From: Clostridia bacterium
GTDB lineage: Bacteria; Bacillota_A; Clostridia; Oscillospirales; CAG-272
DNA: 64,000 bases
Direction of reading: 5' to 3'
NCBI GenBank assembly: GCA_017445115.1
Contig: JAFSUU010000010.1
Coordinates: 1 to 64,000, forward strand
The position numbers were made by a program, and so were the translations under genes. The notes under the pieces are model-generated. The model was not told the origin of the DNA. It worked only from the letters and a program-made list of their open reading frames with translations, and made no database searches. Below, piece by piece: positions 6,855-32,796 of this stretch (positions are counted from its first letter, which is position 1; every line of letters starts with the position of its first letter).

Positions 6855-9302
6855 TCATACACGCAGAAGCGGATCGACGGACGACTTAACGGAGAATACA
6901 AGGTTCTTTCCGTTGTATGAACAGACGAGCTCTTCCCCTTTTCCAGCCGCGCCCGAGATCAGCTCTTCCGCAACAGCGTCGTCGACAAGGCTCGATACGA
7001 GGCGTCTGAGCGGTCTTGCGCCGTAGCGCGAGGCTCCCGAGCGCGACGCTAGCATCGCCGCGACGCTCCCGTCAAATGATAATGATACTCCGCGCTTTGC
7101 AAGCCGAGCTGAGGTCTGAGCGAGATATTTTTCCGCTATCGCGACAAGTTCTTTTTCGCCGAGCGGCGCAAACGGCACGATCTCGTCTATCCTCCCGATG
7201 AATTCCGGGCTGAACGTCTTTTTCAACTCGTCTTCAGCGATCTCTTTTCTGCGTCCTTCGCCGAGATCGTTTTCTTCATTTGCCGAAAATCCGAGACATA
7301 CCGCGCCTCTGAGCTTTTCCCCGCCTACGTTTGAGGTCATTATTATCACGGTATTTTTGAAATCACATTCGCGGCCGCAGGAATCGGTCAGCACTCCGTC
7401 ATCCATTATCTGAAGCAGGACGTTCAATACCTCGTGATGCGCCTTCTCTATCTCGTCGAACAGAACGACGGAATACGGAGCGCGTCTCACAGCCTCGGTC
7501 AGCCTCGGCGCGTCTTCGTATCCGACGTATCCCGGAGGAGATCCGATCAGCTTTGAAACGCTGTGGCTCTCCGAAAACTCGGACATATCGAACCTTATGA
7601 GACTGTCTTTACCTCCGAAGAGCGACGAGGCGAGCGTCTTCGCGAGCTCGGTCTTGCCGACTCCGGTCGGACCTATGAAAAGGAAGACCGCTCCGGGACG
7701 GTCGGGATCCTTGATCCCGATGCGGCACCGTTTGACCGCCCGGCAAACGCGCCTTACCGCGTCATCCTGCCCGACGATCGACGAGAGGATTTCCTCTTCA
7801 AGACCGGCGAGGCGTCCCTCCTCGCGTCCTGTCAGCGCGGAGGTCGGTATCCCCGTGCGAAGGGAGAGCGTTGCCGCGACGTCAGACGCCGAGAGCGACA
7901 CCCGCTCCGTCATATCGCGCCTCGCCTCGTCCTCCGCGCGGCGTCGGAACTCCGCCACAAGCTCTCTTTCCGCGTCTCTGACCGCAAGCGCCGACTCATA
8001 ATCTTCCGAGAGGATCGCCTCTTTTTTCTCCGCTCCGGCATCGCGGATAAGCTCCTCTATCCGCTTGAGATCCGGCGGAGTTCTGCCGGATTCAAAGCGC
8101 ACCCTCGCGGCGCTCTCGTCGACAAGATCGATCGCTTTATCCGGCAAAAATCTATCGTTTATATACCTTACGGAAAGGTCTACCGCAGCGCCGATCGCCT
8201 CATCGGTGATCTTTATTCTGTGGTGAGCTTCGTATCTGTCGCGAAGCCCGCGAAGGATGCCGACGGCCTCGGCAGGCGTCGGTTCCCTTATCGCAACGCT
8301 CTGGAATCTTCTCTCAAGCGCCGCGTCTTTTTCTATCCTCTTGCGGTATTCTTCCGGCGTCGTTGCGCCGATGAGCCGTATCTCACCACGCGAGAGGGCG
8401 GGCTTCAGTATATTTGCGGCATCGAGCGCGCCCTCCGCAGCGCCCGCCCCCATTATCGTATGGAGTTCGTCGATAAACAGTATGATCTTTTTGTTTTTCT
8501 TCGCCTCGTCCATCACCGATTTGAGCCGTTCTTCAAACTCCCCGCGGTACTTCGCGCCGGCTATCATAAGCGAGATGTCAAGGGATACAATCGCCCGGTC
8601 AAGGAGCGAGTCGGGGACGTCGCCTTCCGCTATCATTGAAGCGATCCCCTCGACGATCGCGGTCTTGCCCACGCCCGGCTCGCCGACAAGGCAGGGATTG
8701 TTCTTCGTTCTGCGCGACAGGATCTGCATGACGCGGCAGCATTCTTCCTTTCTGCCGATAAGCGGATCTGTCTCGCGGCGTCTCGCCGCGGCGACAAGAT
8801 CGGTCCCGTATTTTGAGATCGAAGGGCACCCGGAGATTTCTTTTTTGGAGCTTTTCGCTTTTCCGGATTCAAGTCCGACAAATACCGAGACTTCCGACCT
8901 CACGGCTTCGGGAGAGGCGCCCGACGCCGATATCATTTTATAGCCGAAGCTCTCCGGCTCGGACAGTATTGCGTACAAAAGATGCTCGGTCCCGATATAG
9001 CCGCTCTTTCCCGACGAAGATTCCCTCGACGCATCTTCTATCACTTTTTTAGCGCGCGGCGTCATATCTGCGGGGGTAACGGTGCTCGGCTCCCCTACTC
9101 CCGCCGCTTTTTTTATCAGCGCTCTGACGCCCTCATAGCTGACACCCGCCGCATCAAGAACGCCGGATGCGATGCTCTCCGACTCCCCGAGCAGTCCGAG
9201 AAGAATATGTTCGGTGCCGATATACGTGTGCCCCATCTCTCGCGCCGAGTGAAGCGCTCTCGTCAGCGCCTGCTTCGCTTTTCCCGTAAATTTCGCGCCC
9301 AT
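6855..9302 (-). CDS. clpC: ClpC-type AAA+ unfoldase
   Basis: 815 residues in the usual ClpC order: two Clp_N repeats (about 4-65 and 80-143, each with YIGTEHLL-like motifs), AAA1 with Walker A GEPGVGKT (207-214) and ILFIDELHT, a middle region with a UVR-like EDYESALAVRDAERELV stretch, AAA2 with GPTGVGKT (544-551) and [11 protein letters not shown], and the C-terminal D2-small domain. The loop CLGFSA corresponds to the tripeptide that docks on ClpP, so it should feed a ClpP peptidase encoded elsewhere. ClpC handles misfolded proteins and regulators. The usual neighbours ctsR, mcsA and mcsB are absent, and it stands alone with its own promoter. A second Clp ATPase lies at 25011-27296. Confidence 0.94.
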   Translation of the reverse strand: MGAKFTGKAKQALTRALHSAREMGHTYIGTEHILLGLLGESESIASGVLDAAGVSYEGVRALIKKAAGVGEPSTVTPADMTPRAKKVIEDASRESSSGKSGYIGTEHLLYAILSEPESFGYKMISASGASPEAVRSEVSVFVGLESGKAKSSKKEISGCPSISKYGTDLVAAARRRETDPLIGRKEECCRVMQILSRRTKNNPCLVGEPGVGKTAIVEGIASMIAEGDVPDSLLDRAIVSLDISLMIAGAKYRGEFEERLKSVMDEAKKNKKIILFIDELHTIMGAGAAEGALDAANILKPALSRGEIRLIGATTPEEYRKRIEKDAALERRFQSVAIREPTPAEAVGILRGLRDRYEAHHRIKITDEAIGAAVDLSVRYINDRFLPDKAIDLVDESAARVRFESGRTPPDLKRIEELIRDAGAEKKEAILSEDYESALAVRDAERELVAEFRRRAEDEARRDMTERVSLSASDVAATLSLRTGIPTSALTGREEGRLAGLEEEILSSIVGQDDAVRRVCRAVKRCRIGIKDPDRPGAVFLFIGPTGVGKTELAKTLASSLFGGKDSLIRFDMSEFSESHSVSKLIGSPPGYVGYEDAPRLTEAVRRAPYSVVLFDEIEKAHHEVLNVLLQIMDDGVLTDSCGRECDFKNTVIIMTSNVGGEKLRGAVCLGFSANEENDLGEGRRKEIAEDELKKTFSPEFIGRIDEIVPFAPLGEKELVAIAEKYLAQTSARLAKRGVSLSFDGSVAAMLASRSGASRYGARPLRRLVSSLVDDAVAEELISGAAGKGEELVCSYNGKNLVFSVKSSVDPLLRV

Positions 9303-9325
9303 TTTGCCTCCGTTATGAACAGTGT

Positions 9326-9354
9326 TTTATATCATTCTATCCGCGAAGTGACAA
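9326..9354 (-). promoter_or_regulatory. sigma-A promoter of clpC
   Basis: Minus strand TTGTCA (9349-9354) and TATAAA (9326-9331) with a 17-base spacer. I see no CtsR tandem heptamer or CIRCE element between it and the start. Confidence 0.6.
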
Positions 9355-9385
9355 AAATAATCGCAAACGACAAATGACGACGGAA

Positions 9386-9688
9386 TTATAAATTTTCGTA
9401 GATCGACGCGTTGAATTCCTCGGCGAGTCTGTTCCAGGTCACCACGTCGACGCACCCGGTCTCGGGAAGTCCCGCGGCTCGCTGAAAGCACCTTACCGCG
9501 TTTTCCGTGTCGCCGTCGTACGTTCCGACGGGAGACACCTCTCCGAATTCGTCGTAATATATCTTAAGCGAGCAGAGCATTATCTGTATTATCGTCACGA
9601 GATCCCTTTGGTCGCGCGGCGCGACCGCGAAATCCTCCGAGTCGGGAAACGGTTTTATACCCGACGGTCTTATTCTGTCTTCACGCAT
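9386..9688 (-). CDS. small peptidoglycan-binding domain protein
   Basis: About 100 residues with one PG_binding_1 module in the C-terminal two thirds (IIQIMLCSLKIYYDEF, then YDGDTENAVRCFQRAAGLPETGCVDVVTWNRL, where the D-T/E-AV-FQ-G-VD-TW pattern is diagnostic). The ATG at 9688 overlaps the stop of the upstream gene (TGATG), with AGGAGG in the upstream coding end, so the two are translationally coupled. It has no signal peptide. It is the last of three genes whose products carry wall-binding or SpoIID-like modules. Known relatives sit in Clostridia beside spore-cortex or envelope genes; the exact role is unknown. Confidence 0.8.
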   Translation of the reverse strand: MREDRIRPSGIKPFPDSEDFAVAPRDQRDLVTIIQIMLCSLKIYYDEFGEVSPVGTYDGDTENAVRCFQRAAGLPETGCVDVVTWNRLAEEFNASIYENL

Positions 9689-11049
9689 CACGATCCCTCC
9701 TCGAGCCGCTTGTATTCGCTGTAAAGTCTGTTGTAGGTAAGTGCGCCCACCGCTCCGCTCTCGTCAATGCCGAAAAGGCGCTGGAACGCTTTTACCGCCG
9801 CCTCGGTGCCGGGGCCGAAAACGCCGTCGACTGTGACGGCAGGTATTTCGGGGTAAAATCCCGAAAGATAATTCAGATACCCCTGCACCCTCGACACGAA
9901 CGGACCTTCCGAGCCTGCGGCTATCGGATATCCGTAATACGCTTCGTTCGCGAGATAATAATCGTCGGGCGACGATTCGAGCATTCCGCGGTACACGGAG
10001 CGAAGTCTGTTCCACACCGCGTCGTCGGCGACGCCGGTCTCATCCATTCCGTAATAGGTCTGGAACGCGACGAGCGACCGTTCCGTCTCCTCGCCGAAAA
10101 TACCGTCGACAGCGGGCGCGGGAATGAACGGAACGAATCTCGCGATGAAGGAAAGAAGATACTGAAGCTCGACCACGGGAGAGCCGCGCTCCCCGATCTT
10201 CAAAACCTCCGGGAACGTATTCGTCACGTCTTCGATCGGAACTCCTTCCGACGCAAGTTCGGCGAGCGATTTTACGCTCGCATAAAGCCGGAGGATCTTA
10301 TACCAGGTCGCGCGCCCCACGATGCCGTCCGGCGTCAGAGAAAAGATACGCTGAAATTCCTTCACCGCCGCTTCCGTCTCCTCGTCGTAAAAGCCGTTGG
10401 GATATCTGATCTTCGGGATCGCGGGGTAATTGTCCGCTATGCGGTTGAGCCGGAACTGCATCTGTCTCACGCTGTTTCCGAAAGCTCCGAGTTTCAGCGG
10501 CGCGCCGGGATAACTCTCGGTCACGCCTGAGATCGGAGTGTCGAAGACTATCTCGATGTCGTTTCCGTAGTAATTAGTCAGAATGTCAAAAGCTCCCGCA
10601 CCGTCTCTGCCGAGCGCTTCCGATCCCCATTGAGATAGTCCGTCGCAGGTGACCGTAGTACCATTGCAATACTGTGCGAAAAGCGGCTCGACGGCGCCGA
10701 CTCTCGATATGTAGTCGTCGAACTGTTCGTCGACGAGAGCGGAAATGTTGTCGAATATCTCTCTGCCGTAGATGAACGCCTGGTCGCTCGCGGTCGAGTT
10801 CGTGATGTCGAAGTCGTATCCGCGGCTCCTGTAATACTCGGTGTAAACGCGGTTGAGCGCGAACGAAGTCTCGGCGAGGATATTCGCGCGGAGCGCCGCC
10901 TCGCTCCAGGTCGGATAGACCTCGCTCGACGCGACGTTTTTTATGTAATCCGAAAACGGTACCGTCACGTTCGGAGCATCCGAGGAGGGCGGACCGAGAT
11001 GTACCGTTATCGTCTCCGGTATCACCGGATAGCGTACGCTCTCCGTCAT
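9688..11049 (-). CDS. SpoIID-like domain protein with tandem peptidoglycan-binding modules
   Basis: 453 residues without a signal peptide. Residues about 20-165 resemble the SpoIID/LytB lytic transglycosylase fold: YPTWSEAALRANILAETSFA keeps the glutamate of the E-ALKA-A-A-TYA catalytic segment, and GLSQWGSEALGRDG with YYGNDIEI matches the C-terminal motif of that fold. Behind it come three PG_binding_1 modules (about 180-252, 275-350, 370-448), each with the D--T--AV--FQ pattern. SpoIID trims glycan strands during engulfment in sporulating bacteria. The gene overlaps its upstream neighbour by ATGA. Absence of an export signal is odd for a wall-binding protein and points to mother-cell or lysis-dependent delivery, which is inference. 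Confidence 0.85.
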   Translation of the reverse strand: MTESVRYPVIPETITVHLGPPSSDAPNVTVPFSDYIKNVASSEVYPTWSEAALRANILAETSFALNRVYTEYYRSRGYDFDITNSTASDQAFIYGREIFDNISALVDEQFDDYISRVGAVEPLFAQYCNGTTVTCDGLSQWGSEALGRDGAGAFDILTNYYGNDIEIVFDTPISGVTESYPGAPLKLGAFGNSVRQMQFRLNRIADNYPAIPKIRYPNGFYDEETEAAVKEFQRIFSLTPDGIVGRATWYKILRLYASVKSLAELASEGVPIEDVTNTFPEVLKIGERGSPVVELQYLLSFIARFVPFIPAPAVDGIFGEETERSLVAFQTYYGMDETGVADDAVWNRLRSVYRGMLESSPDDYYLANEAYYGYPIAAGSEGPFVSRVQGYLNYLSGFYPEIPAVTVDGVFGPGTEAAVKAFQRLFGIDESGAVGALTYNRLYSEYKRLEEGS

Positions 11050-19845: not shown

Positions 19846-21330
19846 CTATTCCTCTCGTTCATAAAGCTCATTCAGCGGCTTGAATTTGTCGGACAGGTCA
19901 AGCATTTCTTCAACATAGACGCCGCTCAACCAATAAGATCTTTTCGCATACGCTTTTATGCCGTGATAGGACGCGTCGCTTGTGATAAGGCGGTACTTGT
20001 CACCGACGATCTCCAGTGCCGCGCAGTTCGAAAGGGAAAACCCGATCTCTCCGCTTTCCCGAAGCAATCCCTTTGTGCTTTTCACCCGCTTTGGGTCGTC
20101 GCAGTGCGGTATAAATAGGCCTGGAAGAAGCCCTAAGCAATCAACGATAATGATCGGGGCACCCTCTCCCTCAGTAATGCTGAGCGAATCGGACGATCCT
20201 TTGCTGAACCAGCATTCCGCGCCTGCCGAAACGCCGCACATCACCTTTCCGTTTTCCCACGCGCCGCGAAGTATCTTATCGAATCCGGTCTCTTTCCACA
20301 AAGCGATCATTCTCAGCGTATTGCCGCCGCCCTCGTAGATGATATCAGCCCAGTCGACGAGAGATTTGACATATTCGACGTCGCTTAGCCTGTCGCTTTT
20401 CAGATCGCGGCATTCGCACCCGAAACGCTCGCCGTAAATGGCTTGCATAACGTTAAAATATCCTTCTTGCGCCTCAAGCGGCTGCGAATGAGCGAGCATA
20501 AGGAAATGAGGTTTATCTTTCCCGGTGAGACGTATTATTTCTCTGTCCTGTGCTTCAAGCTCGTATGGAAGCGCCTTTCCGTCTTTGCTGATCCTTCCGT
20601 TTTCACCGCCGCCGATAGCTACGATTTTTCTGTTTTCCATATTTTGATTCTCTTTATTTCCGGTAAGTATTTCAATCAGTTCAAGCGGGTGTGAGAGTTC
20701 CGGGAAAGCGTCGTTTCTCCCGGTCGGAGGTGACGCGGCATCCGTGAAATACCACGTCGCCTGATATACCTTCATGCCGAGTTCTCTCGCTCTTTCAAGC
20801 TCGTTTGCACCACCGTCGCCGACGTAGACGCACTCGTCCGGCGCGACTCCGAGAGACGCCATACAACGCTCGAATATCACGGGATCTGGCTTTTTTACTC
20901 CTTGCTCGTAAGAAAACATCACCGCGTCAAAATATTTATATAAGACGCTTTCCTTTATCAGGTCCACTTCTTCGGAAAAACAGTTGGTGATAAGTCCTAT
21001 CTTGAAACCTGATTCCTTAAGACCTCTCAGCATTGGTATTATTTCTTCGTGCAGATGATCGAAACACTCTTTTTTCGTTTCGATCCTTTTTGCAACCACC
21101 CGGTCGAGCAGTTCTTCCGAAAAACAGCCGTTTCCTTTGAATACAGCCGTCAGCGCTTCTTCAAGCGTCATTTTTCCGAGAGTTCTTGCATCACCCGTCG
21201 GATCCCAGAATTCTCTGAAATCTTTTACGTCTATCCCCGCGTCCTTTGCTATCTGAGAACCGAAGTACAGAGGTACGGCAAAATGAGTGATCAGCGTTTC
21301 ATACATATCGAATATCACTGCTTTCAACAT
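19846..21330 (-). CDS. HAD hydrolase fused to S51 peptidase
   Basis: Start taken at 21330 (MLKAVIFDMYETL) behind AAGAGGA; the frame extends upstream from a TTG with no binding site. Residues 1-225 are a HAD phosphatase/dehalogenase domain: nucleophile Asp8 in FDMYET (the DxY variant seen in 2-haloacid dehalogenases), ITNCFS, KPDP and VGDGGANE. Residues about 231-494 are an S51 (peptidase E/cyanophycinase) domain: AIGGGENG, YEGGGNT and the nucleophile elbow GVSAGAE. Peptidase E cleaves Asp-X dipeptides. Met231 begins the second domain and has a weak AAAGAGA upstream, so a free S51 protein could also be made. The fusion is unbroken in frame. Either domain is firm; why they are joined is not known. 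Confidence 0.87.
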   Translation of the reverse strand: MLKAVIFDMYETLITHFAVPLYFGSQIAKDAGIDVKDFREFWDPTGDARTLGKMTLEEALTAVFKGNGCFSEELLDRVVAKRIETKKECFDHLHEEIIPMLRGLKESGFKIGLITNCFSEEVDLIKESVLYKYFDAVMFSYEQGVKKPDPVIFERCMASLGVAPDECVYVGDGGANELERARELGMKVYQATWYFTDAASPPTGRNDAFPELSHPLELIEILTGNKENQNMENRKIVAIGGGENGRISKDGKALPYELEAQDREIIRLTGKDKPHFLMLAHSQPLEAQEGYFNVMQAIYGERFGCECRDLKSDRLSDVEYVKSLVDWADIIYEGGGNTLRMIALWKETGFDKILRGAWENGKVMCGVSAGAECWFSKGSSDSLSITEGEGAPIIIVDCLGLLPGLFIPHCDDPKRVKSTKGLLRESGEIGFSLSNCAALEIVGDKYRLITSDASYHGIKAYAKRSYWLSGVYVEEMLDLSDKFKPLNELYEREE

Positions 21331-21408
21331 AGCTTTTCGATCCTCTTCTTTTCCTTTTAGATAAAACGGTTTACAGAGCACAAGAGACCCTGACGGGTTT
21401 CCTATTTT

Positions 21409-22224
21409 TTAAAATATGATCTTTTCTATTTCTTTCAGATATTCCGCCGGTGCGTCTTCGATCTTTCCCGAATCGACAAGCGCTGTCAGCGCGGGATCGA
21501 GCGGAAGAGACGCGCTCTTTTTAATGCCGTATTCGGCAGAGATCTTTCCGAGAGAACTCTCCCCGAAAATATTTATTTTTTTACCGCAGTCGGGGCAGGC
21601 GACGTACGACATATTCTCGACGATACCGAGCACGGGTATGCTCATAAGGTCAGCCATTCTGACCGCTTTCTCAACGATCATCGAGACGAGCGACTGAGGG
21701 GTCGTGACGACGACGATACCGTCGAGCGGTAAGGACTGAAATACGGTGAGCGGCACGTCGCCGGTTCCCGGAGGCATATCGACGAACATATAGTCGACGT
21801 CCCCCCAGACGACGTCGGTCCAAAACTGTTTGACGGCGCCGGCGATCACCGGGCCGCGCCACACGACCGGTGACGATTCGTCTTCGAGAAGGAAATTGAG
21901 GGACATTATCTTTATTCCCTCCGCGCTCTCAAGCGGAACGAGTCCGCCGTCCTGCTGATATATCTCGCCCGCGACGCCGAACGCTTTCGGTATCGACGGA
22001 CCCGTTACGTCGGCGTCCATTATCGCGGTTTTAAATCCGCGCTTCGCCGCCGCGACGGCGAGCATCGAAGTCACTATCGATTTACCGACTCCGCCCTTTC
22101 CGCTGACGACGCCGATAACGTGCTTTACGCTGCTGTCGTCTCTCGTTTTTTCATGAGATGGTGCGTTTCTCGATTCACAGTTTGCCGAGCAACTTGAACA
22201 GTCGTGAGTACATTCTTCTGACAT
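21409..22224 (-). CDS. mrp: Mrp/NBP35-family iron-sulfur cluster carrier ATPase
   Basis: 271 residues. The N-terminal CTHDCSSCSANC gives four closely spaced cysteines (5, 9, 12, 16), like NBP35-type proteins. GVVSGKGGVGKS is the deviant Walker A with the signature lysine, MDADVTGPSIPK and DYMFVDMPPGTGD follow, and CPDC near the C terminus bridges the 4Fe-4S cluster between monomers. The protein carries Fe-S clusters to target enzymes in the cytoplasm. Its AGGAGA binding site lies within the last codons of the P-type-like gene upstream, so translation is coupled. Length and motifs are normal. Confidence 0.92.
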   Translation of the reverse strand: MSEECTHDCSSCSANCESRNAPSHEKTRDDSSVKHVIGVVSGKGGVGKSIVTSMLAVAAAKRGFKTAIMDADVTGPSIPKAFGVAGEIYQQDGGLVPLESAEGIKIMSLNFLLEDESSPVVWRGPVIAGAVKQFWTDVVWGDVDYMFVDMPPGTGDVPLTVFQSLPLDGIVVVTTPQSLVSMIVEKAVRMADLMSIPVLGIVENMSYVACPDCGKKINIFGESSLGKISAEYGIKKSASLPLDPALTALVDSGKIEDAPAEYLKEIEKIIF

Positions 22225-22229
22225 GGTAA

Positions 22230-24983
22230 TTATTCTCCTTTTGAAGATACGGTCTCTTTATTTTTTCCCGATTTTCCGCTTTTTGAAGCGGCTTTATAGA
22301 TTTCAAGTGATATGAGAGATACCGCGCCGGGTATCAGAGTAAGCAAGAACTGTTTGAAAGTAAGTCTTTCCGCGCCGATAACCGAAGAAAGTCCGGTCAG
22401 CGCAAACAGTACGGCAAGAACAGCGCAAGCGAAGAACAGCAGCGGTATTTCCCCGCTTCTCCTCTTCGACTTTTTGAAGATAGTCCCGTTCGTCATCATC
22501 TCGATACCTACGACCGGGATGCTGAAGAGCGCCGATGAAAACACGAGGTTCATCACGACGCCTGAAGTCACACCTTCCGGAGACAGAGCCGAGAGCGCCG
22601 CGGGGATGGTAAGAAGGATGAGCCCCCATACAGTACCCGAAACGATCGCGAAAGCGAAGTCCTTAAATCCTTTTTGAAGTTCGTGAGCGCTTTTGTCGAC
22701 GCTGATAATGTTCCACGGCGGGTCCCTTCTGAGCGAGACGAACGCGACGGCAAGGTCGATCAGCAGTCCCCAAAGCAGAAGTGCGACCGGACTTGCGGGA
22801 GTCAGATCTTTCGTAAACGAAGCGACGAGAACGAGAAACAGCTTTGCGACGTTTGACGCCAAAAGATAGTTGGCGCAGCGCCTCATATTCATAAACGCGC
22901 CCTTTGCAAGCTCGACGACTCTGAAAGATTCAAAGACGCCTCCTCCGCTCTTCGGCGTGACGATGACGTCCGACGACGAACGGATCGACTGAGGTATCGT
23001 CTTCGATATCTTCGACGCCGCGGGCACCGCGACGGAGACAGACGCCTCTTTCATCAGCCACATATCAGACGCGTCGCGGCTGACGTATACCGCGCTGCAT
23101 CCTCCGAGGCGGAGTTTTTTGTACGCTTCGCGTCTCATTTTTGCCGAGTCGCGCGCGCCGACGGAGATCGCCGCGAACTGCCCGGGCTCGAGGGTTATGC
23201 GTTCGGCTCCGACCATTTCTTCGTATGTGATATAGCGGTCGCCGTCTTTGATGAAGCCCACCATTTCAAGGAAAGCGCGGTCCTCGTCCGAGCCGTCGGT
23301 GAAGCATACCATACGGCAGGAAGTCCCTTCTCTGCACTTTCGTATCGCGTCGAGAGCGTCGCCGTAAGGTCTGTCCGACAGGGCGAGAAAGCCCTCGAAC
23401 GTCATGCACATCTGAAGCGCGGAAACCCGGTTCATATTGACGTAGGGCGAATCTCGCCTTGCAACGCCGACCGTGAAGACGCCTCTTTTTCTGAGTGCGT
23501 CGACCTCGGTTCTGATCGCGGCGACGTCGTCCTTCGTAAGCGGGCAGATTTTGCCGCCCTTTCTTATGTTGGTACAGCAGGAGAGCACACCGTCGACAAC
23601 TCCGGAAACTATCGCTTCAAAGTTGCCGCCCCTGCATATCAGCGCGGTGTCGAGTCCTCCCGACTCCGCGCCGTAAGACGGCTCGTGTCCGACAAGAACG
23701 GTGTTTTCAAACGTCCTCGATTCGTACGAGCGTTCAAAATATTCGTCAAATACTTTTCTGATCCCTGCGTATCCGAACGACGTCTCCTCACGCGGCACTT
23801 CCGCGACAGCGGGCGAAAAAGTACCCTGCGGAAGCAAACCCGTCGTGACGTAGCAGAGCTTCAACAGTTCGGCGGGCGAAGAGCCCTCTCCGGGCTCGTC
23901 CACGTTCACAAGCCTTTTGCCGTCAAAATATGAATTCAGCGTGATATCTCCCGCCTTTATCATTATCGGGCTTTCAAGCACTATCGTGTCGGCGTTGTTC
24001 ATATCTCCGACCGAAGCCGCGTTCTTGACCTTTGCGCGCCCGGAATCTTCACCGTCGGCTTTTCTTACTGCTGCGGCGAGCGCGTACGCGCCGATTATCG
24101 GGAACGCTTCGCTCATCGCGGCGGCGCTGAGCGCGGCGGCGGAGAGAAGGACTTCGAGCGCCGAACCGCCTCTGGCGGCGGCGCCGGCGACCGTTATCAC
24201 AAGGATCGCGGCGAGTGACGCGATACCGAATACGCGGCTCCACGAGGTCATCTTTTCGGAGATCTTAAGCTTCTCGCCGGAAGGGATCGTCAGCGTTCCG
24301 AATTTTGCCGCGGCGAGAGTGTCGCCGCCCAGCGCGACGATAAGCGCCCTCGCTTCGCCCGACACGATCGTCGAGCCGGCATACAGCATATTGTCGCGTT
24401 TTTCTATCGGGCATTCAACGCCGCCCTCATCGACGATGGTATCGGCGTTTTTGAAGATGAGCGATTTGTTGTCCGTCATCTTGTTTTCATAGACGAAAAC
24501 ACCGGGCGTGGAAATTATTCTCGCGTCTCCGGGCACGGTATCGCCCGGATAAAGCATCACGACGTCGCCGACAACGAGATTTTCCGCGCTGTGTATCAGC
24601 GCTTGCGAATTTCTGACTACAGTGACGCGCGGGATAACGCCGCGCGCTTTTTCTTCAAAGATCCTCTGCGTTCTGACGTGGAGCGCGACTCTCGCCGCGC
24701 CGCCGAGGACGACCACAGACAGGATCGAAACGAACTCCGTCGTCTTTTCGAAGATCGCCGCTATCACGGCGACCACGAGCAAAACGAGCGTCGACAGATC
24801 GAGAAGCATACGGAGCGCCGCTTCAAGGACCGACGCGCGCTTGACTCTCCAAAGGCGGTTATGACCGTTCTTTGAAAGCCTCTTTGCCGCCTCTTTCGGA
24901 TGAAGCCCGCGGAAAAGATCCGTGCCGAGCTCCCCCGCCAGCGCCTCCGGTGTCTTCGAATGCCAGTTGGTATCAATACTCAT
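22230..24983 (-). CDS. P-type ATPase-like membrane protein lacking all catalytic motifs (pseudoenzyme)
   Basis: 917 residues with the layout of a P2-type cation ATPase: cation-ATPase N domain (WHSKTPEALAGELG), two helices at 55-100, an actuator-like domain (about 105-235), a helix pair at 250-305, a large cytoplasmic part (310-690) and six C-terminal helices. The motifs that define the family are replaced: TGES reads TDNK (170-173), the PEGL of helix 4 reads SEAF (291-294), the phosphorylation loop DKTGTLT reads SPIMIKA (338-344, no Asp), KGAPE reads CRGGN, and TGDGVND reads VSRDASD. It therefore cannot form an aspartyl phosphate. The frame is uninterrupted over 2.7 kb with normal codon use and a good AAAGGTGA site, so it is maintained. 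Role unknown: sensor, scaffold or channel are possibilities. Confidence 0.88.
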   Translation of the reverse strand: MSIDTNWHSKTPEALAGELGTDLFRGLHPKEAAKRLSKNGHNRLWRVKRASVLEAALRMLLDLSTLVLLVVAVIAAIFEKTTEFVSILSVVVLGGAARVALHVRTQRIFEEKARGVIPRVTVVRNSQALIHSAENLVVGDVVMLYPGDTVPGDARIISTPGVFVYENKMTDNKSLIFKNADTIVDEGGVECPIEKRDNMLYAGSTIVSGEARALIVALGGDTLAAAKFGTLTIPSGEKLKISEKMTSWSRVFGIASLAAILVITVAGAAARGGSALEVLLSAAALSAAAMSEAFPIIGAYALAAAVRKADGEDSGRAKVKNAASVGDMNNADTIVLESPIMIKAGDITLNSYFDGKRLVNVDEPGEGSSPAELLKLCYVTTGLLPQGTFSPAVAEVPREETSFGYAGIRKVFDEYFERSYESRTFENTVLVGHEPSYGAESGGLDTALICRGGNFEAIVSGVVDGVLSCCTNIRKGGKICPLTKDDVAAIRTEVDALRKRGVFTVGVARRDSPYVNMNRVSALQMCMTFEGFLALSDRPYGDALDAIRKCREGTSCRMVCFTDGSDEDRAFLEMVGFIKDGDRYITYEEMVGAERITLEPGQFAAISVGARDSAKMRREAYKKLRLGGCSAVYVSRDASDMWLMKEASVSVAVPAASKISKTIPQSIRSSSDVIVTPKSGGGVFESFRVVELAKGAFMNMRRCANYLLASNVAKLFLVLVASFTKDLTPASPVALLLWGLLIDLAVAFVSLRRDPPWNIISVDKSAHELQKGFKDFAFAIVSGTVWGLILLTIPAALSALSPEGVTSGVVMNLVFSSALFSIPVVGIEMMTNGTIFKKSKRRSGEIPLLFFACAVLAVLFALTGLSSVIGAERLTFKQFLLTLIPGAVSLISLEIYKAASKSGKSGKNKETVSSKGE

Positions 24984-25010: not shown

Positions 25011-27296
25011 TCATTCGGCGGAATCGACGGTTATCTTCTCTCCGTCGGAACCGACAGACACTTTCTTAAGCGCACCTTTTGTCCTGATGATCTCGCCCGC
25101 GATCCTGTCCTCGACCTCTGTTTCAATAAAACGTCTCATATTTCTGGCTCCGAACTTCGCGGAGAACGATTTTTCCGCTATCAGCGCGATCGCTTCGGGA
25201 GTAAAAGTGAGTTCTATCTCTTTATCCGCCATGACCTTGACGAGGTCCCCGGTCATGATCTTCGCGATGCCTTCAAAGTTCTCTTTGTCGAGCGCTCTGA
25301 ACGTCACGATCTCGTCGACGCGGTTCAAAAATTCGGGGCGGAGGAATTCTGCGAGCGCGCGGGAAGTCTTTTCGCTCGACTGGAGATCCGGGCTGTCGGT
25401 AAATCCGGTGAGCGTCGACGGTCCCTGCGAGCCCGCGTTCGTCGTCATAACGATAACGGTATTCTCAAAGTTGACTGTTTTTCCTCTCGCGTCGGTTATC
25501 CTTCCGTCGTCAAGGATCTGAAGGAGGATATTCATGACGTCGGGATGCGCCTTCTCTATCTCGTCGAACAGAACGACGGAATAGGGACGGCGGCGGATCT
25601 TTTCGGTGAGCTGTCCCGCGTCGTCGTAGCCGACGTATCCGGGAGGAGCTCCTATAATCCTCGACACCGAGAATTTATCCATAAATTCGCTCATATCGAG
25701 CCTTATCAGCGTTTCGGGCGACTGGAACAAGTCGGCGGCGAGCACTTTTACAAGCTCCGTCTTACCGACTCCGGTCGGTCCCGCAAAGATGAATGACACC
25801 GGGCGGCGCTTCGCCGAAACTCCGGTGCGCGAACGGCGTACGGCGCGAACGACCGCGTCGACCGCCTTATCCTGACCGACTATCCTCGATTTTATCCTGT
25901 CGGCGAGGCCGTCAAGGCGGGAGAACTCGTCTTCCGTGATCGTGGACGCGGGGATGCCGGTCCATATTTCTATGACGTCGGCAAGGTCGGACACTTTCAT
26001 TTCGACCTTCTCGCAGAGCGGTGTCAGCTCTCCGACTCTGTTCTGGAGCGAGAGAAGCTCCGCCTTTATCTCGGCGAGCCGCTTATATGTTTCATCCGAT
26101 TTGTTGTTCTCAGCCTCAAGTCCTCCGCGCTCGTTTTCAAGCGCGCGGATGCGGTCGAGGCACTCTCTCTTTTCATTTATTTCCGGAGACGAGAGCGAAA
26201 TATGGCTCGACGCCTCGTCGATAAGGTCGATCGCCTTGTCGGGGAGATATCTGTCCGTGATATATCTCTCGCTGAGAGAGACAGCGTATGACAGGACCGC
26301 AGACGGTATCGTTATCGAATGGTATTCTTCGTAGTAATGCTTGATGCCGCGCAAGATACTCTCGGTATCCGCAAGGCTCGGCTCCTCGACCATAACGGGT
26401 TGGAAACGCCTCTCGAGCGCGGTGTCTTTTTCGATATATTTTCTGTATTCCGTCAGCGTCGTCGCGCCGATCACCTGTATCTCGCCTCTGGAGAGCGCGG
26501 GTTTCAGGATATTCGCCGCGTTCATACTGCCCTCGGCGTCGCCCGCTCCGACGATGTTGTGGACCTCGTCGATCACGAGTATCACGTTTCCGAGCGCTTT
26601 GACCTCTCCGAGAAGTCCGAGGACTCTCGACTCGAACTGACCTCTGAACTGAGTGCCCGCGACGAGCGCGGTGAGATCGACGAGATATATCTCTTTATTC
26701 TTCAGAACGTACGGAACGTCCGCTCTCGCGATCTTCTGCGCGAGTGATTCTGCAATAGCGGTCTTGCCCACTCCCGGTTCACCAATAAGGCACGGGTTGT
26801 TCTTCTGACGGCGGCAGAGTATCTGGATGACGCGGGAAAGCTCCCTCTCGCGCCCCACGACGTTGTCGAGTTTCCCCTCTCTCGCGCGCTCCGTCATATT
26901 CGTGCAGTACGTCGTGAGAAATTTCAGCTCTTTTTTCTTTCTCTTTCTGCCTTGATCTTTGCCGTCGTTCCCCGTCAGCTTCGAAAAGTCGACAGCAGGA
27001 GCTCTCGCATCGGCGGCATCGTCGTCATAAACCTCCGCGGGAAGGTCGCCGGAACTGCCCATAAGTCCGTCGAGAATACCGTTCTCGTCACCTTCCATGA
27101 GATTTTCGATCTCCGACGACATCTTTTCAAGATCCTCGTCGGTGAGTCCCATCTTATTTATCATATCGTTGACCGGCTTGATCCCGAGCTCTCTGGCGCA
27201 TTTGATGCAAATGCCCTCCTGCTTGGTCTCACCGTTTTCTATCTTGGTCATGAACACCACGGCAACTCTCTTGTGGCATCTTGAACACATTGTCAT
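25011..27296 (-). CDS. ClpE-like AAA+ unfoldase with N-terminal zinc finger
   Basis: 761 residues. It lacks Clp_N repeats and instead begins with a CxxC/CxxC zinc finger (Cys4, Cys7, Cys30, Cys33), a glutamate-rich helix and an acidic linker, as in ClpE of Bacillota. AAA1 has GEPGVGKT (172-179) and ILVIDEVHN; a coiled middle domain follows (about 395-440); AAA2 has GPTGVGKT and [16 protein letters not shown] sits where ClpP-docking loops occur. ClpE is a stress unfoldase that works with ClpP. The ATG is nine bases after GGAGG. It lies in a long minus-strand run between cvpA and the P-type-like gene. I see no CtsR site. Confidence 0.88.
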
Positions 27297-27329: not shown

Positions 27330-28058
27330 TCACCCTATCCGCTCCGTCACGTTTTTGATGACGGAGATAGGATTGTATTGTGCGAAAAATTTCAGTATCA
27401 CCGAATCGTTTACAGTATTTTTAAAATTCTCCGGCAGGACCGATTCGAGCGCTGACACTCCCGCGGACAGAACGAGCGAGAGCACCCAAAGCACGATCAG
27501 CGCCGTGACGATGCCGAGCGCAAGTCCCGCCGTGCGGTCTATCGTTCTGATGACCGGCGCTTTGAACAGTACGATTATGAGCTTTGACGCAAGGCGCAGC
27601 AGAATAAATGCTACGACAAAAAGTCCGATGAACGCTATCGCGTTCGAGATCTTCCATGAGGTCGGCTTTGCGATAAACTCGGATATTTTGCTGACCGCGG
27701 ACTCTCCCGTGTCGGAAAGTCCGGAGACGAACTCCCTCAGCGCTCCGTCTTCGACGTTGTATTTATCGAGTGTGCCTGCAAGCGTTTCCGGTATCTTTGA
27801 GAGAAACACGGAAACGTCGGTGCCGATCGAAGTCGAAGCGGCGCTTCTGACAGTCGATTCGATGCCGGATGATATCTTTCCGATAAACACGCTGTTTGCG
27901 AGCCATCCGGAGACCGTCGGAGTCAGCGCGTACGCAACAATAACGGAGACCACGCTGCAAACGAGCCCCATCACCGATTTGACAAGGCCGCGTCTCCAAC
28001 CGAGAAAAATTATGACCGCGGCTATCGCCACGAGTATGATATCTAATGCGATGTTCAT
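27330..28058 (-). CDS. CvpA-family membrane protein
   Basis: 242 residues. The N-terminal LDIILVAIAAVIIFLGWRRG followed by LVKSVMGLVCSVVSVIVAYA is the conserved opening of CvpA proteins, with a glycine-arginine turn between the first two helices; two more helices lie near 145-165 and 180-205, and an extracytoplasmic loop of about 80 residues separates the pairs. CvpA was named for colicin V production and is linked to envelope integrity in other bacteria; its molecular task is unknown. It is flanked by DUF5711 and clpE-like genes on the same strand with 17- and 33-base gaps. Confidence 0.85.
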   Translation of the reverse strand: MNIALDIILVAIAAVIIFLGWRRGLVKSVMGLVCSVVSVIVAYALTPTVSGWLANSVFIGKISSGIESTVRSAASTSIGTDVSVFLSKIPETLAGTLDKYNVEDGALREFVSGLSDTGESAVSKISEFIAKPTSWKISNAIAFIGLFVVAFILLRLASKLIIVLFKAPVIRTIDRTAGLALGIVTALIVLWVLSLVLSAGVSALESVLPENFKNTVNDSVILKFFAQYNPISVIKNVTERIG

Positions 28059-28075: not shown

Positions 28076-29332
28076 TCAGCCGTCTGTTTCTTCAGGTGCG
28101 GATGTCTCCTCGGCAAATCCCGTGACGGCGGACGTCTTTCCGAGGACCAGGACGTTGTCTGAAAACGGAACGAGTCCCGAGATGAAGACCGGGCACTCCG
28201 TTTGTTTCTCCGTCCCGTCAAACAGAACCTTTGTCAAAACTCCGTCGGATGCATAAAATACTCCGGCTTCGCCTATCGCGCAGTAATTGATCTTCTTGTC
28301 CCCTCCGAAAGTCATCTCTTCCGTGCCGTCGGACTTGAAGACCGTCGCTTTGCTTGCGCTGTCGACCGCGTTCGCACTGCATACGAGAAGCACACGGTCG
28401 TCGGAGAAAGATACCCCGGACACGCCGTATCCGATCAGCGGGTAATTTGCAGTCTCTTCTCCGTTTGCGGCATAGAAGTGAACCGACGAATCGCACACTA
28501 CGCAGAATGATCCGTCGCCGAAGAAGAAGACGTTGAGCGGCATGGCGTCGTCAATGGTAAAAGATTTTGCGTTCTCGCTCCCGCATATACCGAACATCAC
28601 TTCGGTCGTAAAATCGGTGGTGCCGATATCGCACGATGCGACAGCGTAGCGGGTACCGTCATCTGAAAGCGCCACGTCCATGACGTATTTATCTTTATAT
28701 ATTCTCGAAAGTTCTCTGAAATTCTCGTCAAAAATGCTGATCACATATCTGTTCTCTCTCGCTCGGTTCAACAGAGCGAACGAACCGCTCTTCGACAGAG
28801 CCGCGCCCTGAAGCGCGTAGTCGGTCTGTTTTGACTGCGCTTCGACGAGAGAAGTGCAGATCGAATAAGTCGTTCCTCCGACGTCGTAGACCATAACGTA
28901 TTTGTCGCCGGTAAGAACTTTCGGGTTTTCCATTGAGATCTTGAACGATCTCTCTGCGGAGCCGGTATTGTTATACAGAGTGAGCGACGTTGTAGTTGCG
29001 ATCGCAAGCTTTCCTTTGAAGATCGCGGCGCTCATCTTACGGCTTTCGTCGTATTTGATCTCGCTGAATGCGGCGCCTTCCGCGTCGATATCCGTATCCA
29101 GGTCTTTTGCGAGATAAACGAGATTTTCATACGTTATCTGATCGCGGTAAAGTATGATCATGCCGACAACGAACGCGAGGAGCAGCAAAACGGAAACTAA
29201 TTTGACGACTCTGTATCGCCTTGCGACCTTAAGATAATACGGATTTTGCTCTCTCTCATTATCAACTTTGATATTAATTTTTTGGGATCTTGATAATCGT
29301 TCTTTATTATTCTTTTCTTTTTCGCTGTTCAA
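28076..29332 (-). CDS. DUF5711-type membrane-anchored beta-propeller protein
   Basis: 418 residues starting at a TTG nine bases after GGAGGT. A basic cytoplasmic tail (1-45) is followed by one membrane helix (about 47-66) and an extracellular domain made of repeated beta strands with blades such as FKGKLAIATTTSLTLYNNTG, YAVASCDIGTT, FVVCDSSVHFY-like segments, which suggests a propeller. This arrangement matches DUF5711 proteins of Clostridia, which have no assigned function and commonly sit beside cvpA, as here. No catalytic residues are evident. The C terminus (SAPEETDG) is short and acidic. Confidence 0.75.
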   Translation of the reverse strand: MNSEKEKNNKERLSRSQKINIKVDNEREQNPYYLKVARRYRVVKLVSVLLLLAFVVGMIILYRDQITYENLVYLAKDLDTDIDAEGAAFSEIKYDESRKMSAAIFKGKLAIATTTSLTLYNNTGSAERSFKISMENPKVLTGDKYVMVYDVGGTTYSICTSLVEAQSKQTDYALQGAALSKSGSFALLNRARENRYVISIFDENFRELSRIYKDKYVMDVALSDDGTRYAVASCDIGTTDFTTEVMFGICGSENAKSFTIDDAMPLNVFFFGDGSFCVVCDSSVHFYAANGEETANYPLIGYGVSGVSFSDDRVLLVCSANAVDSASKATVFKSDGTEEMTFGGDKKINYCAIGEAGVFYASDGVLTKVLFDGTEKQTECPVFISGLVPFSDNVLVLGKTSAVTGFAEETSAPEETDG

Positions 29333-29368: not shown

Positions 29369-30157
29369 TCATTCAGCGAGCCAATCTATTTTAATCGGAT
29401 AAATTACTTCTTTGAGATAAAGTCCCTCGGGCGGAAGCGTCTCGCCCGCGGCAGCGCGGTCGCGCACGGATATGATCTCCGGAATATCGCGCGCCGTTGT
29501 TTTTCCTTTTGCAACGTCGAGCAGAGTTCCCGACATGATCCGGACCATATTGTAAAGAAATCCGTCGGCGAAAACCGTAAATTCAACAACATCGCCGCAC
29601 CTTGCGACCGAAGCGGAAAAGACTTCCCTCGTCGCGTCTGTGATCTTCGAGCCGGACGCCATGAAAGACGTAAAATCGTGCCTGCCCTCAAACCGCTTTG
29701 CGGCTTCATCCATCTTTACTATAGAATCATCGGAGATCTTCTTTCCGTATTCGTAAACTCTTCCGCGAAGGAACGGAGACGGAACGGGCGAATCGTATAT
29801 TCTGTAAACGTACTTTTTTCCGACGACGGAATACCTCGGGTGAAAATCGTCGTCATTGACTATAAACGCTCCGGTGACCGATATATCGCCGGGCAGAACG
29901 TTATTCGCCGCCAGATGGAACTTTTCCGCGGGTATCTTCAGCCATCCGTCTTCTTCGGTCCGGGGAGTGACAGACACGACGTATCCCTCGGCGTGAACTC
30001 CGGAGTCTGTACGGCTGCACCCGGTGACGTTTACCGGACGACCGATAAGTCCGGATAATGACTCTGTCAGAACTCCCTGAACGGTACGAAGCCCGGGCTG
30101 CGCCTGAGAACCGTGAAAATCCTTTCCGTCGAATGCGAGTTTCAATAATAATTTCAT
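29369..30157 (-). CDS. truA: tRNA pseudouridine(38-40) synthase
   Basis: 262 residues of the TruA family: the N-terminal AFDGKDFHGSQAQPGLRTVQ, the catalytic aspartate in CSRTDSGVHAEGYV, and the later YVYRI, RHDFTSFMA and FLYNMVRIM motifs are all there. The enzyme isomerises uridines 38-40 in the anticodon arm. The start overlaps the end of ecfT closely (four bases between), the common truA position behind the ECF genes in Bacillota. Confidence 0.95.
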   Translation of the reverse strand: MKLLLKLAFDGKDFHGSQAQPGLRTVQGVLTESLSGLIGRPVNVTGCSRTDSGVHAEGYVVSVTPRTEEDGWLKIPAEKFHLAANNVLPGDISVTGAFIVNDDDFHPRYSVVGKKYVYRIYDSPVPSPFLRGRVYEYGKKISDDSIVKMDEAAKRFEGRHDFTSFMASGSKITDATREVFSASVARCGDVVEFTVFADGFLYNMVRIMSGTLLDVAKGKTTARDIPEIISVRDRAAAGETLPPEGLYLKEVIYPIKIDWLAE

Positions 30158-30161
30158 AGTA

Positions 30162-30989
30162 TTACCAGCCTATCGCAAAGCCGTTCGTATAAGTGTTCAC
30201 AAACACGAGAGCGACTCCGAGCGCGATTATGATCAAAACCGCGATGACGTCCGAGAACGAAGCTTTCAGTACCTTCAGCCTCGTTCTGCCCTTACCGCCT
30301 CTGTAACAGCGGCATTCCATCGCAACCGCGAGTTCGTCCGCACGTCTGAATGATGATGCGAAAAGAGGAACGAGAACGGGGATCAGCGCCTTTGCGCGCT
30401 TTATCAGCGAGCCTTCGGAGAACGATGCGCCCCTCGCTTTTTGAGCGTCCATGATTTTTCCGGTCTCTTCTATCAGAGTCGGAATGAATCTGAGCGCTAT
30501 CGTCATCATAAGTGAAAACTCGTGCACAGGGACCTTGATATATGACAACGGCTTCAAAAGACTTTCAAGTCCGTCCGTCAGCGCAAGAGGTGTCGTTGTA
30601 TAAGTCAGTATCACGCTTGTTCCCGCGATCAGAAGCACGACGCGAAGAACTATAAGGATCGCGTTATAAACACCTTCGAGATAAACAGTGATTATCCAGA
30701 AATGAAACAGCTCCGTCGTACCGCTGTACCAGAACAGATTAATGACCGCGGTAAAGATCATTATGAACAGCACCGGCTTCAGCCCCCGCAGGATTATCCT
30801 CGGTTTTATGCCGGACAGAGCTATCAATATGAGCGAAAATACTGTGAGCAGCACGAACGCCCAGACGTTTTTTGCGAGAAAAACGTCGACTATGAAGAAC
30901 AAAGACATAAGTATCTTTGCTCTCGGGTCAATTCTGTGAAGGATGGAATTGCCTTCGCAGTACTGCCCGAACGCAACGTCAAAATTCAT
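30162..30989 (-). CDS. ecfT: energy-coupling factor transporter membrane subunit T
   Basis: 275 residues with about five to six membrane helices; it starts FGQYCEGNSILHRIDPRAKI, typical of EcfT, and has the cytoplasmic coupling helices with KARGASFSEGSLIKRAKALIP (X-R-G motif) and the second AMECRCYRGGKGRTRL, which contact the two ATPases. Together with EcfA1/A2 it powers substrate-binding S components encoded elsewhere for vitamins or metals. The order ecfA1-ecfA2-ecfT-truA is the standard one. Confidence 0.94.
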   Translation of the reverse strand: MNFDVAFGQYCEGNSILHRIDPRAKILMSLFFIVDVFLAKNVWAFVLLTVFSLILIALSGIKPRIILRGLKPVLFIMIFTAVINLFWYSGTTELFHFWIITVYLEGVYNAILIVLRVVLLIAGTSVILTYTTTPLALTDGLESLLKPLSYIKVPVHEFSLMMTIALRFIPTLIEETGKIMDAQKARGASFSEGSLIKRAKALIPVLVPLFASSFRRADELAVAMECRCYRGGKGRTRLKVLKASFSDVIAVLIIIALGVALVFVNTYTNGFAIGW

Positions 30990-31057: not shown

Positions 31058-31924
31058 TCAATTATTGAGAGAATACTTTTCTATCAGACGCTCCGCGGCG
31101 TATTTCACCGTGTAAACGTCCTTTCCGATCCCGACGCCGAGCTCGTCAAGAACCGCCGCGATCTTCGTGATCTCGGGAACGTCGAGTCCCATCGCGCGAA
31201 GCTCATCCCCGCGCTCAAATACCTTTTCGGTATCGTCGCACATAAATATCTCACCGCCGTTCATTACGGCGAGGCGGTCGCAATACTTTGCGACGTCTTC
31301 CATGCTGTGACTGACTATGACTACCGTGTTGCCGTTCTCGCGCTGATACTTTTTGATCCTGCCGAGTATCTCTCGTCTGCCCGCCGGATCGAGACCCGCA
31401 GCGGGTTCGTCGAGAACGAGAAGCGACGGACGCATTGCGATAACTCCCGCGAGCGCGGCGCGGCGGCGCTGTCCTCCCGAAAGATCGAACGGAGATTTTT
31501 CGAGCAGATCCTCGTCAAGTCCCGCAAAGCGAGCCGCTTCGAGAACGCGCTCCCTCAGCATTTCCGGAGCAACGCCCATATTCTTCGGACCGAAAGATAT
31601 GTCCCCGGACACAGTATCGTCAAAAAGCTGATACTCGGGATACTGCATAACGAGCCCGACCTTGAATCTCACGTCGCGCATCTTAACTTTTTTATCCCAT
31701 ATATTCTCGCCGTCGACGATGATCTCTCCCGAATCCGGCTTCAGAAGTCCGTTCAGCATTTTTATCAGCGTGGACTTTCCGCTGCCCGTTGATCCTATGA
31801 TCCCCGTAACGACTCCCTGCTTCAGCGCAAGCGATACGTTCTTTACCGCGTGCTTTTCATAGGCGATACCTTTATTATACGTGTATGAAACGTTTTTGAA
31901 TTCCGCAGCGTATACTTCACTCAT
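31058..31924 (-). CDS. ecfA2: energy-coupling factor ATPase A2
   Basis: 288 residues of ABC ATPase type: Walker A GSTGSGKS, Q-loop VMQYPEYQLF, signature LSGGQRRRAALAG, Walker B LLVLDEPAAGLD and the H-loop VIVSHSMED. The N-terminal FKNVSYTYNKG plus an additional C-terminal segment match EcfA2. Its ATG overlaps the stop of ecfA1 by ATGA. A 68-base gap without function that I can see separates it from ecfT. Confidence 0.94.
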   Translation of the reverse strand: MSEVYAAEFKNVSYTYNKGIAYEKHAVKNVSLALKQGVVTGIIGSTGSGKSTLIKMLNGLLKPDSGEIIVDGENIWDKKVKMRDVRFKVGLVMQYPEYQLFDDTVSGDISFGPKNMGVAPEMLRERVLEAARFAGLDEDLLEKSPFDLSGGQRRRAALAGVIAMRPSLLVLDEPAAGLDPAGRREILGRIKKYQRENGNTVVIVSHSMEDVAKYCDRLAVMNGGEIFMCDDTEKVFERGDELRAMGLDVPEITKIAAVLDELGVGIGKDVYTVKYAAERLIEKYSLNN

Positions 31925-32796
31925 TCAAGACACCCCCTTTCAGAGAGCGCTTCTTTTATGACCGCGGCGCATTCGTCGGGATCGAAGACGTCGAGCGGTA
32001 CGTCGAGCCCCGCGTCGCGAAGGCGCCACAAAAACTCCGTTGTCTGCGGAACGTCAAGCCCCGCTTCCCACAGCTCTTCGGCGCGGCAGAATATTTCTCT
32101 CGGCGTGCCGTCCATGATTATCCCGCCGTTTTCCATAACGATCACGCGGTCAGCTTCAGACGCTTCATTCATATAGTGAGTGATCAAAACCACCGTTATT
32201 CCCTCTTCACGGTTAAGACGAATGATATTCTTCATAACTTCGCGTCTGCCGAGAGGGTCGAGCATCGCGGTGCTCTCGTCGAAGATTATACAGCGGCGTT
32301 TCATAGCGAGAGCGCCGGCTATCGCCACTCTCTGCTTCTGACCTCCCGAAAGCCTTGACGCGGAGTGACGCGCGTATTCGCTCATCCCGACCGCCGAAAG
32401 CGCGTCGTCAACACGTTTTCTTATTTCTTCGGACGGTATCCCGAGATTTTCGGGACCGAACGCAACGTCGTCTTCAACTATCGTTGCAACTATCTGGTTG
32501 TCCGGGTTCTGAAAGACCATTCCGACGCTTCTTCTCGCGCCGTATATGTCGTCCTCGGTAGTGTTCTCGTCCGTGACTTCCACTCCGTCGACGACAAGTC
32601 TGCCCGAATCCGGCACATTTATCATACATAAGAGCTTTGCAAGAGTGGACTTTCCGCTTCCGTTTCTGCCGAGGATAGCGGTAAAAGTACCCTCTTCTAT
32701 TTCAAAACTCACGTTTTTAAGTGCCTCAACGCGCTCTTCCGGAGTATCTCCCTCGTAAGCAAAAGACACGTTTTCAGCTGTAATAATCCTGCTCAT
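31921..32796 (-). CDS. ecfA1: energy-coupling factor ATPase A1
   Basis: 291 residues: Walker A GRNGSGKS, Q-loop VFQNPDNQIV, signature LSGGQKQRVAIAG, Walker B CIIFDESTAMLD and H-loop VLITHYMNEA. The S in the Walker B region (DES instead of DEP) and FQNPDNQ are usual for EcfA1. It is the first of the three ECF genes and follows the methyltransferase gene by 24 bases. Confidence 0.94.
   Translation of the reverse strand: MSRIITAENVSFAYEGDTPEERVEALKNVSFEIEEGTFTAILGRNGSGKSTLAKLLCMINVPDSGRLVVDGVEVTDENTTEDDIYGARRSVGMVFQNPDNQIVATIVEDDVAFGPENLGIPSEEIRKRVDDALSAVGMSEYARHSASRLSGGQKQRVAIAGALAMKRRCIIFDESTAMLDPLGRREVMKNIIRLNREEGITVVLITHYMNEASEADRVIVMENGGIIMDGTPREIFCRAEELWEAGLDVPQTTEFLWRLRDAGLDVPLDVFDPDECAAVIKEALSERGCLE

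Follow-up and report, generated by a model that had tools for sequence, protein, structure and literature searches.

The 64,000-nucleotide stretch of a Clostridia bacterium genome analysed here (contig JAFSUU010000010.1; 'the window') carries on its reverse strand a gene for a protein that keeps the architecture of a P2-type cation ATPase and lacks its catalytic motifs, and which we call a pseudo-pump (Table 1). The open reading frame starts with ATG and runs for 917 uninterrupted codons; AAAGGTGA lies directly 5' of the start codon, and the ribosome site of the following mrp gene, AAAGGAGAA, overlaps the 3' end of the pseudo-pump gene. Sequence matches to MgtA (E 2.2e-27), SERCA and LMCA1 point to P2 descent, as do Pfam families PF00122 and PF00690: a Pfam scan of the protein returned Cation_ATPase_N and E1-E2_ATPase, with Cation_ATPase_C below threshold, and did not find the HAD catalytic domain. 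The AlphaFold model (predicted local distance difference test, pLDDT, 86.3) has a full P2-type ATPase fold, with the A, P and N domains in place and the membrane helices arranged as in P2 pumps, as is also predicted for the second clade described below, and LMCA1 aligns with it over 820 residues. An earlier note, made from the letters of this DNA, had described an open frame with the domain order and helices of a P2-type ATPase, a good ribosome binding site and the next gene's site inside the gene's end, all of which is borne out.

The catalytic motifs were located by alignment with ordinary pumps and their letters verified on the DNA. Where active enzymes have the phosphorylatable Asp of DKTGT the window protein has E337; TDNK and VSRDASD stand for TGES and TGDGVND, the TGD loop being lost as well; and in the nucleotide site S436 and S460 occupy the positions of the adenine-stacking Phe and the KGA Lys. 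A string search of the 917-residue chain for DKTG, TGES, KGAP, TGD and GDGV/IND found none anywhere, and the pseudo-pump reading also survives the search for an intact DKTGT elsewhere in the chain that the earlier note had suggested. That note had every motif replaced, which is right for DKTGT, TGES, KGAPE and TGDGVND but not for the glutamate of PEGL, kept as E292; it had placed three of the five replacements correctly (TDNK, SEAF and VSRDASD), whereas its SPIMI for DKTGT is one residue off, the aligned residues being ESPIM, and its CRGGN for KGAPE is wrong, the counterpart being SGVVD. The window protein is almost certainly a true pseudoenzyme of the P2-type ATPase fold, and we strongly infer from its sequence that the phospho-aspartate cycle is beyond it and that ATP-driven pumping of the usual kind does not occur.

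Table 1. The pseudo-pump gene, its motif positions and its neighbours in the window (clade I is the clade of the window protein; see text)
Feature	Positions	Strand	Basis
Pseudo-P2-type ATPase, 917 aa	22230..24983	-	A, P, N domains and P2 membrane helices; catalytic motifs absent
TDNK (residues 170-173), at TGES position	24465..24476	-	alignment
SEAF (291-294), helix M4, at PEGL position; ion-site E292 kept	24102..24113	-	alignment
ESPIM (337-341), at DKTGT phosphorylation-motif position	23961..23975	-	alignment
SGVVD (460-464), at KGAPE (nucleotide binding) position	23592..23606	-	alignment
VSRDASD (634-640), at TGDGVND position	23064..23084	-	alignment
K714, helix M5; Arg/Lys in clade I, mostly Glu in ordinary pumps	22842..22844	-	alignment
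G739 to D743, helix M6; Gly replaces pump Asn, D743 invariant in clade where letters exist	22755..22769	-	
Mrp/NUBPL-type P-loop NTPase; less conserved neighbour	21409..22224	-	ribosome site overlaps pseudo-pump gene end
ClpC/ClpE-type AAA+ unfoldase	25011..27296	-	N-terminal CxxC pairs, two AAA modules, Gly-Phe loop
CvpA / Colicin_V membrane protein	27330..28058	-	
DUF5711 protein	28076..29332	-	
tRNA pseudouridine synthase, TruA type	29369..30157	-	
EcfT (CbiQ) transporter component	30162..30989	-	
Two ABC ATPases, EcfA by position	31058..32796	-	

The protein is one of many. In a protein search the sequences ranked ahead of the ordinary ATPases, 24 close homologues (at 50-94% identity, including two partial sequences) and a single distant one, all lack a precomputed HAD catalytic domain. 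Among 196 genomes sampled from the bacterial family to which G001, the genome carrying locus L001, belongs, 104 match at E 1e-30; 100 of the 113 listed match places were fetched, 13 being left out, and 95 of the loci so obtained, each from a different genome, carry a motif-less homologue, while six open frames in the fetched regions are ordinary ATPases. A further protein search added 54 homologues, some perhaps from species already represented among the loci. DKTGT and GDGV/IND occur in none of the 95, 24 and 54 homologues as against all 66 of 66 ordinary ATPases, and they are likewise absent from 14 more diverged copies that a broader profile picked up behind clp, one at only 41 bits, in 32 regions of initially unmatched genomes (52 of the 92 unmatched family genomes were tested with DUF5711, 33 matched and 32 regions were fetched); having been sought at the clp locus, these 14 are no independent evidence for the link to clp discussed below. 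Related genomes therefore abound in homologues without the same motifs, as the earlier note's reading had implied. At the DKTGT column the 95 loci have Pro in 52, and Glu is found in 22 of the 25 members of the window's subclade. In one locus (L040:8169-10940), the only one of the 95 with Asp at that column (DREGA), LTGE is kept and KGA and GDGVND are lost, and it is possibly an intermediate.

Open frames of at least 850 residues are present in 92 of the 95 loci, and length varies at both extremes. Shortened pseudo-pumps of ~684 residues occur at L174:1314-3368, where the N domain is missing, and at L175:8939-10993; L194:8070-10175 encodes a 701-residue membrane-like protein behind clp with a trace profile match of 41 bits and no Pfam match; and L105 has a split copy. 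Long pseudo-pumps (L089, L075, L106, L099, L051, L077, L053 and L037) end in charged C-terminal tails of roughly 150-400 residues, of which the four longest proteins share a similar C-terminal end; Pfam found no extra domains in the four tails scanned. Among the matches listed the organism names are uncultured Clostridia, Clostridiales, Eubacteriales and Ruminococcaceae, with no cultured or named species, and, where public annotation is present, many pseudo-pumps are named cation-transporting or Ca2+-transporting ATPases, which predicts transport where the chemistry is absent.

All nine pairs of genes above 80% identity have ratios of nonsynonymous to synonymous substitution (dN/dS) of 0.03-0.11, and among the 45 pairs that share at least 60% identity the ratio is at most 0.28 in the 41 for which it could be computed (NG86 gave no value for the other four, nor did YN00 for most pairs below 75% identity). 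Against L054 and L055 the window gene gives 0.21 and 0.22, rough estimates with dS above 1. Nothing is near 1, which speaks for purifying selection, and the earlier proposal of selection for a non-pumping role is supported by these ratios together with the motif-less homologues and the absence of DKTGT.

From a gap in scores it had seemed that the pseudo-pump was confined to one family, a view ruled out by G294, whose match of 475 bits falls among the ordinary ATPases and is itself a pseudo-pump. The order sample comprises 295 genomes, 250 of them with a match, and the degenerate G294 protein, which lies behind clp, led to 20 loci of a second clade, clade II (L240-L258 and L262, L258 being cut by a contig end), none of which has DKTGT, TGES or GDGV/IND. 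The adenine-stacking Phe is lost in both clades, while the KGA Lys is lost in the window's clade (clade I) and kept in 8 of 19 clade II sequences. When 105 sequences of clade I and 19 of clade II are placed in one tree with 69 ordinary ones, the pseudo-pumps are split from the ordinary pumps with support 1.0, on a stem of 0.68 substitutions per site, and clade I by itself is not a split once clade II is included. This split and its long stem fit one ancient loss of catalysis, which would have been followed by divergence, shortening in some lineages and absence in others. A class-level search did not separate pseudo-pumps from ordinary ATPases and gave no loci, and the distribution figures here cover the order only. 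A clade this large and old, catalytically dead yet still under selection, makes it possible to ask cleanly what use the P-type pump fold has when it does not pump.

The former ion site has changed in a consistent way in clade I. At the columns that we take to be those of SERCA E309, E771, N796 and D800, the 95 loci have Glu in 88, Arg or Lys in 93, Gly in 92 and Asp in 93 (two sequences are gapped at the last three columns), and the same residues are found in 53, 54, 54 and 54 of 54 proteins; few positions in this clade are better kept than the acidic residues of M4 and M6. Ordinary pumps, in a set of 81, have mostly Glu (weighted 0.83) and always Asn (1.00) at the two switched positions. In clade II the site is mostly Asp (17/20), an uncharged or hydrophobic residue, and Asn (17/20), and Gly at position 739 is common there too (17/20). 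With a basic residue placed between two acidic ones, the space for a cation in the clade I site would be taken up, and the Glu, Arg/Lys and Asp around the pocket may hold it fixed through an internal salt bridge.

The genes around the pseudo-pump form an array that recurs across the 95 loci in the order ecfA-ecfA-ecfT-truA-DUF5711-cvpA-clp-pseudo-pump. By direct tblastn 90 of them have clp immediately upstream on the same strand (a tally by clustering gave 78/95, too low because antisense open frames hid Clp genes), and of the five exceptions two are at a contig end, L052 is 359 bp from one, and L102 and L105 are without it. The same arrangement is found at 19 of the 20 clade II loci, the remaining one being at a contig start, and at none of 16 ordinary ATPases (10 with flanks up to 1.5 kb and six in longer regions); among the six longer regions clp occurs only in L039, where it belongs to an adjacent pseudo-pump, the ordinary P2-type ATPase and the pseudo-pump adjoining there on opposite strands (L039:4885-7671 and 7820-10615). 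The clp-pseudo-pump pair is the tightest of the array, with a median gap of 24 bp (27 bp in the window), and is kept in both clades. By clustering truA is present in 60 and ecfT in 61 of the 95 regions. The earlier note had asked whether both neighbours are conserved; clp is, whereas mrp is found in only 21 of the 95 regions (within 300 bp in 17) and is a weak candidate for a partner. Further along in the window, at 19846-21381 on the reverse strand, is a gene of 511 codons for an HAD hydrolase fused to a peptidase S51 domain. On the evidence of gene order and substitution ratios, then, the pseudo-pump is kept by purifying selection at a fixed place directly behind clp, and this fixed neighbour makes its function directly testable.

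Of 80 aligned Clp neighbours 75 have the CxxC cysteines and 79-80 the Walker Lys-Thr and the Gly-Phe loop, from which we expect the neighbour Clp to be an active unfoldase that may have ClpP as its partner. It matches solved ClpC and ClpE and, with N-terminal zinc-finger cysteines, two AAA modules and a ClpP-type loop (the loop being named by position only), is of ClpE type; Clp_N is not among the best 25 of 36 Pfam families shown for it, whereas the window's other Clp (6855-9302) does have Clp_N. DUF5711 is present in 39 of 40 further order genomes, and 30 short DUF5711 loci have a cvpA match beside 28 and the start of clp in 13, where the 1.5-kb flank reaches it. By these counts the array would seem to go back at least as far as the pseudo-pump does. 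Over 44 loci the median identity of pseudo-pump, DUF5711 and CvpA is 0.241-0.255 as against 0.620 for Clp, as if three envelope proteins were changing together around a constant Clp engine. At one locus (L187:8029-10866) a 945-residue protein with internal repeats occupies the pseudo-pump's place behind clp.

The best explanation we can offer, tentatively and from gene order only, is that the pseudo-pump is a pseudoenzyme serving as the membrane partner of the adjacent Clp within an envelope module. Indirect support comes from the constancy of the clp pairing in both clades and from the high rate of divergence that the three envelope proteins share. Judged from gene order, some functional link to the Clp module has about an even chance of being right, and its more specific form, an anchor or adaptor, is rather doubtful. 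As a scaffold or docking platform in the membrane, the pseudo-pump might deliver substrates to the unfoldase or itself be handled by it, and it might act with DUF5711 and CvpA in envelope quality control or a stress module. It is tempting to speculate further, while considering it unlikely in full, that the loss of catalysis made a cation pump a permanent membrane component or dock of a Clp envelope module in one order of Clostridia, with the pocket of one clade becoming a structural salt bridge; if true, the body of a pump would have been reused as a dock tying a cytosolic unfoldase to the membrane. Several observations weigh against the partner reading or the completeness of the loss. Gene order can reflect co-expression alone; ten loci (our own count) have the clp array and no recognisable pseudo-pump, so Clp does not need it, and in L102 and L105 the pseudo-pump is present with no Clp directly upstream. 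The low median identity of the pseudo-pumps (0.24) leaves most surfaces free to change, and the Glu-Arg-Asp set of clade I is not kept in clade II. Asp persists at the DKTGT column in L040 and in 2 of the 20 clade II loci, the Glu of TGES in 10 other members of the 95, KGAP in 7 of the 20 clade II members, and a weak HAD match in L037, one scanned member.

That the pseudo-pump is a mere passenger of the operon, co-expressed with clp and having an independent structural or lipid-binding function in the membrane, is also unlikely, though truA and the ecfAAT genes recur upstream with no evident functional tie and a lipid is bound in the structure of human TMEM94, a P-type-like protein (PMC12134183); the tightness of the clp pair and its retention in both clades count against it. 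Less probable still is that it partners a true P2-type ATPase of the same cell in a regulatory or dominant-negative way, by forming heteromers or by sharing small regulators. The predicted conformation of the window protein resembles E1 states, including regulator-bound SERCA, and all 10 order-sample genomes with the window's clade have at least one further match, not each verified as an ordinary ATPase; such matches, however, are common without a pseudo-pump too (250/295 genomes), and only in L039 is one adjacent. Of the roles named in the earlier note (sensor, scaffold or regulator of a true ATPase), the non-pumping character is upheld, but nothing found is specific to regulating a true ATPase. 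We give the same low probability to a sensor of ions or ligands, or a carrier, gated or passive, in which the transport helices were kept and ATP coupling lost: the well-kept M4 and M6 acids of clade I would suit it, but the conserved Arg/Lys in place of the M5 Glu should disfavour a cation, and with clade II mostly Asp, hydrophobic and Asn no single site is kept.

A still active pump with unconventional chemistry is very improbable, given that neither clade has the adenine-stacking Phe and that clade I has also lost the KGA Lys. Its encouragement comes from human ERMA/TMEM94, which is reported to transport Mg2+ although TGES is absent and GDGVND replaced (PMC13322241); ERMA, however, retains the Asp of DKQGI, and here Asp is absent at that column from 94 of 95 and Pro present in 52. 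Least probable of all is a decaying pseudogene without function. Shortened L174 and L175, L194 without a Pfam match, split L105 and absent copies are what decay might leave, but the low dN/dS of close pairs, the long open frames and the conservation of the replacement residues argue against it.

Compared with P2-type ATPases such as LMCA1, SPCA1, SERCA and MgtA, the pseudo-pump shares domain order, fold and A-domain core motifs and, in clade I, the glutamate of M4 and the aspartate of M6; it differs in that the phosphorylation, dephosphorylation and nucleotide motifs are gone, M5 has changed to Arg/Lys and the M6 Asn to Gly. The neighbour Clp resembles ClpE and ClpC unfoldases in its N-terminal CxxC pairs, two intact AAA modules and Gly-Phe loop, and differs from them in its setting, an ecf-truA-DUF5711-cvpA array followed by the pseudo-pump. 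Among dead membrane pseudoenzymes, iRhoms keep an enzyme fold as partner or adaptor proteins; the likeness lies in a dead membrane enzyme fold, while the fold itself and the organisms differ and a partner role for the pseudo-pump would be by inference. Surveys of uncharacterised P-type families mention degenerate members. Searches of open-licence PubMed Central, a coverage outside which subscription journals fall, turned up no title or listed abstract on bacterial P-type pseudo-ATPases. The nearest precedent found, by analogy, is human TMEM94/ERMA, compared here by its published description only: a P-type-like membrane protein in which TGES is missing and GDGVND replaced and whose ATPase activity is disputed, no such activity being detectable in one study (PMC12134183) and ATP-dependent Mg2+ uptake being reported in another (PMC13322241). 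Unlike the bacterial proteins it is human, keeps the Asp in DKQGI and, in the portions of these sources available, is mentioned with no Clp partner. The bacterial family would seem to go further along the same path, the Asp being lost in nearly all members, and as such provides natural comparison material for the dispute over TMEM94/ERMA.
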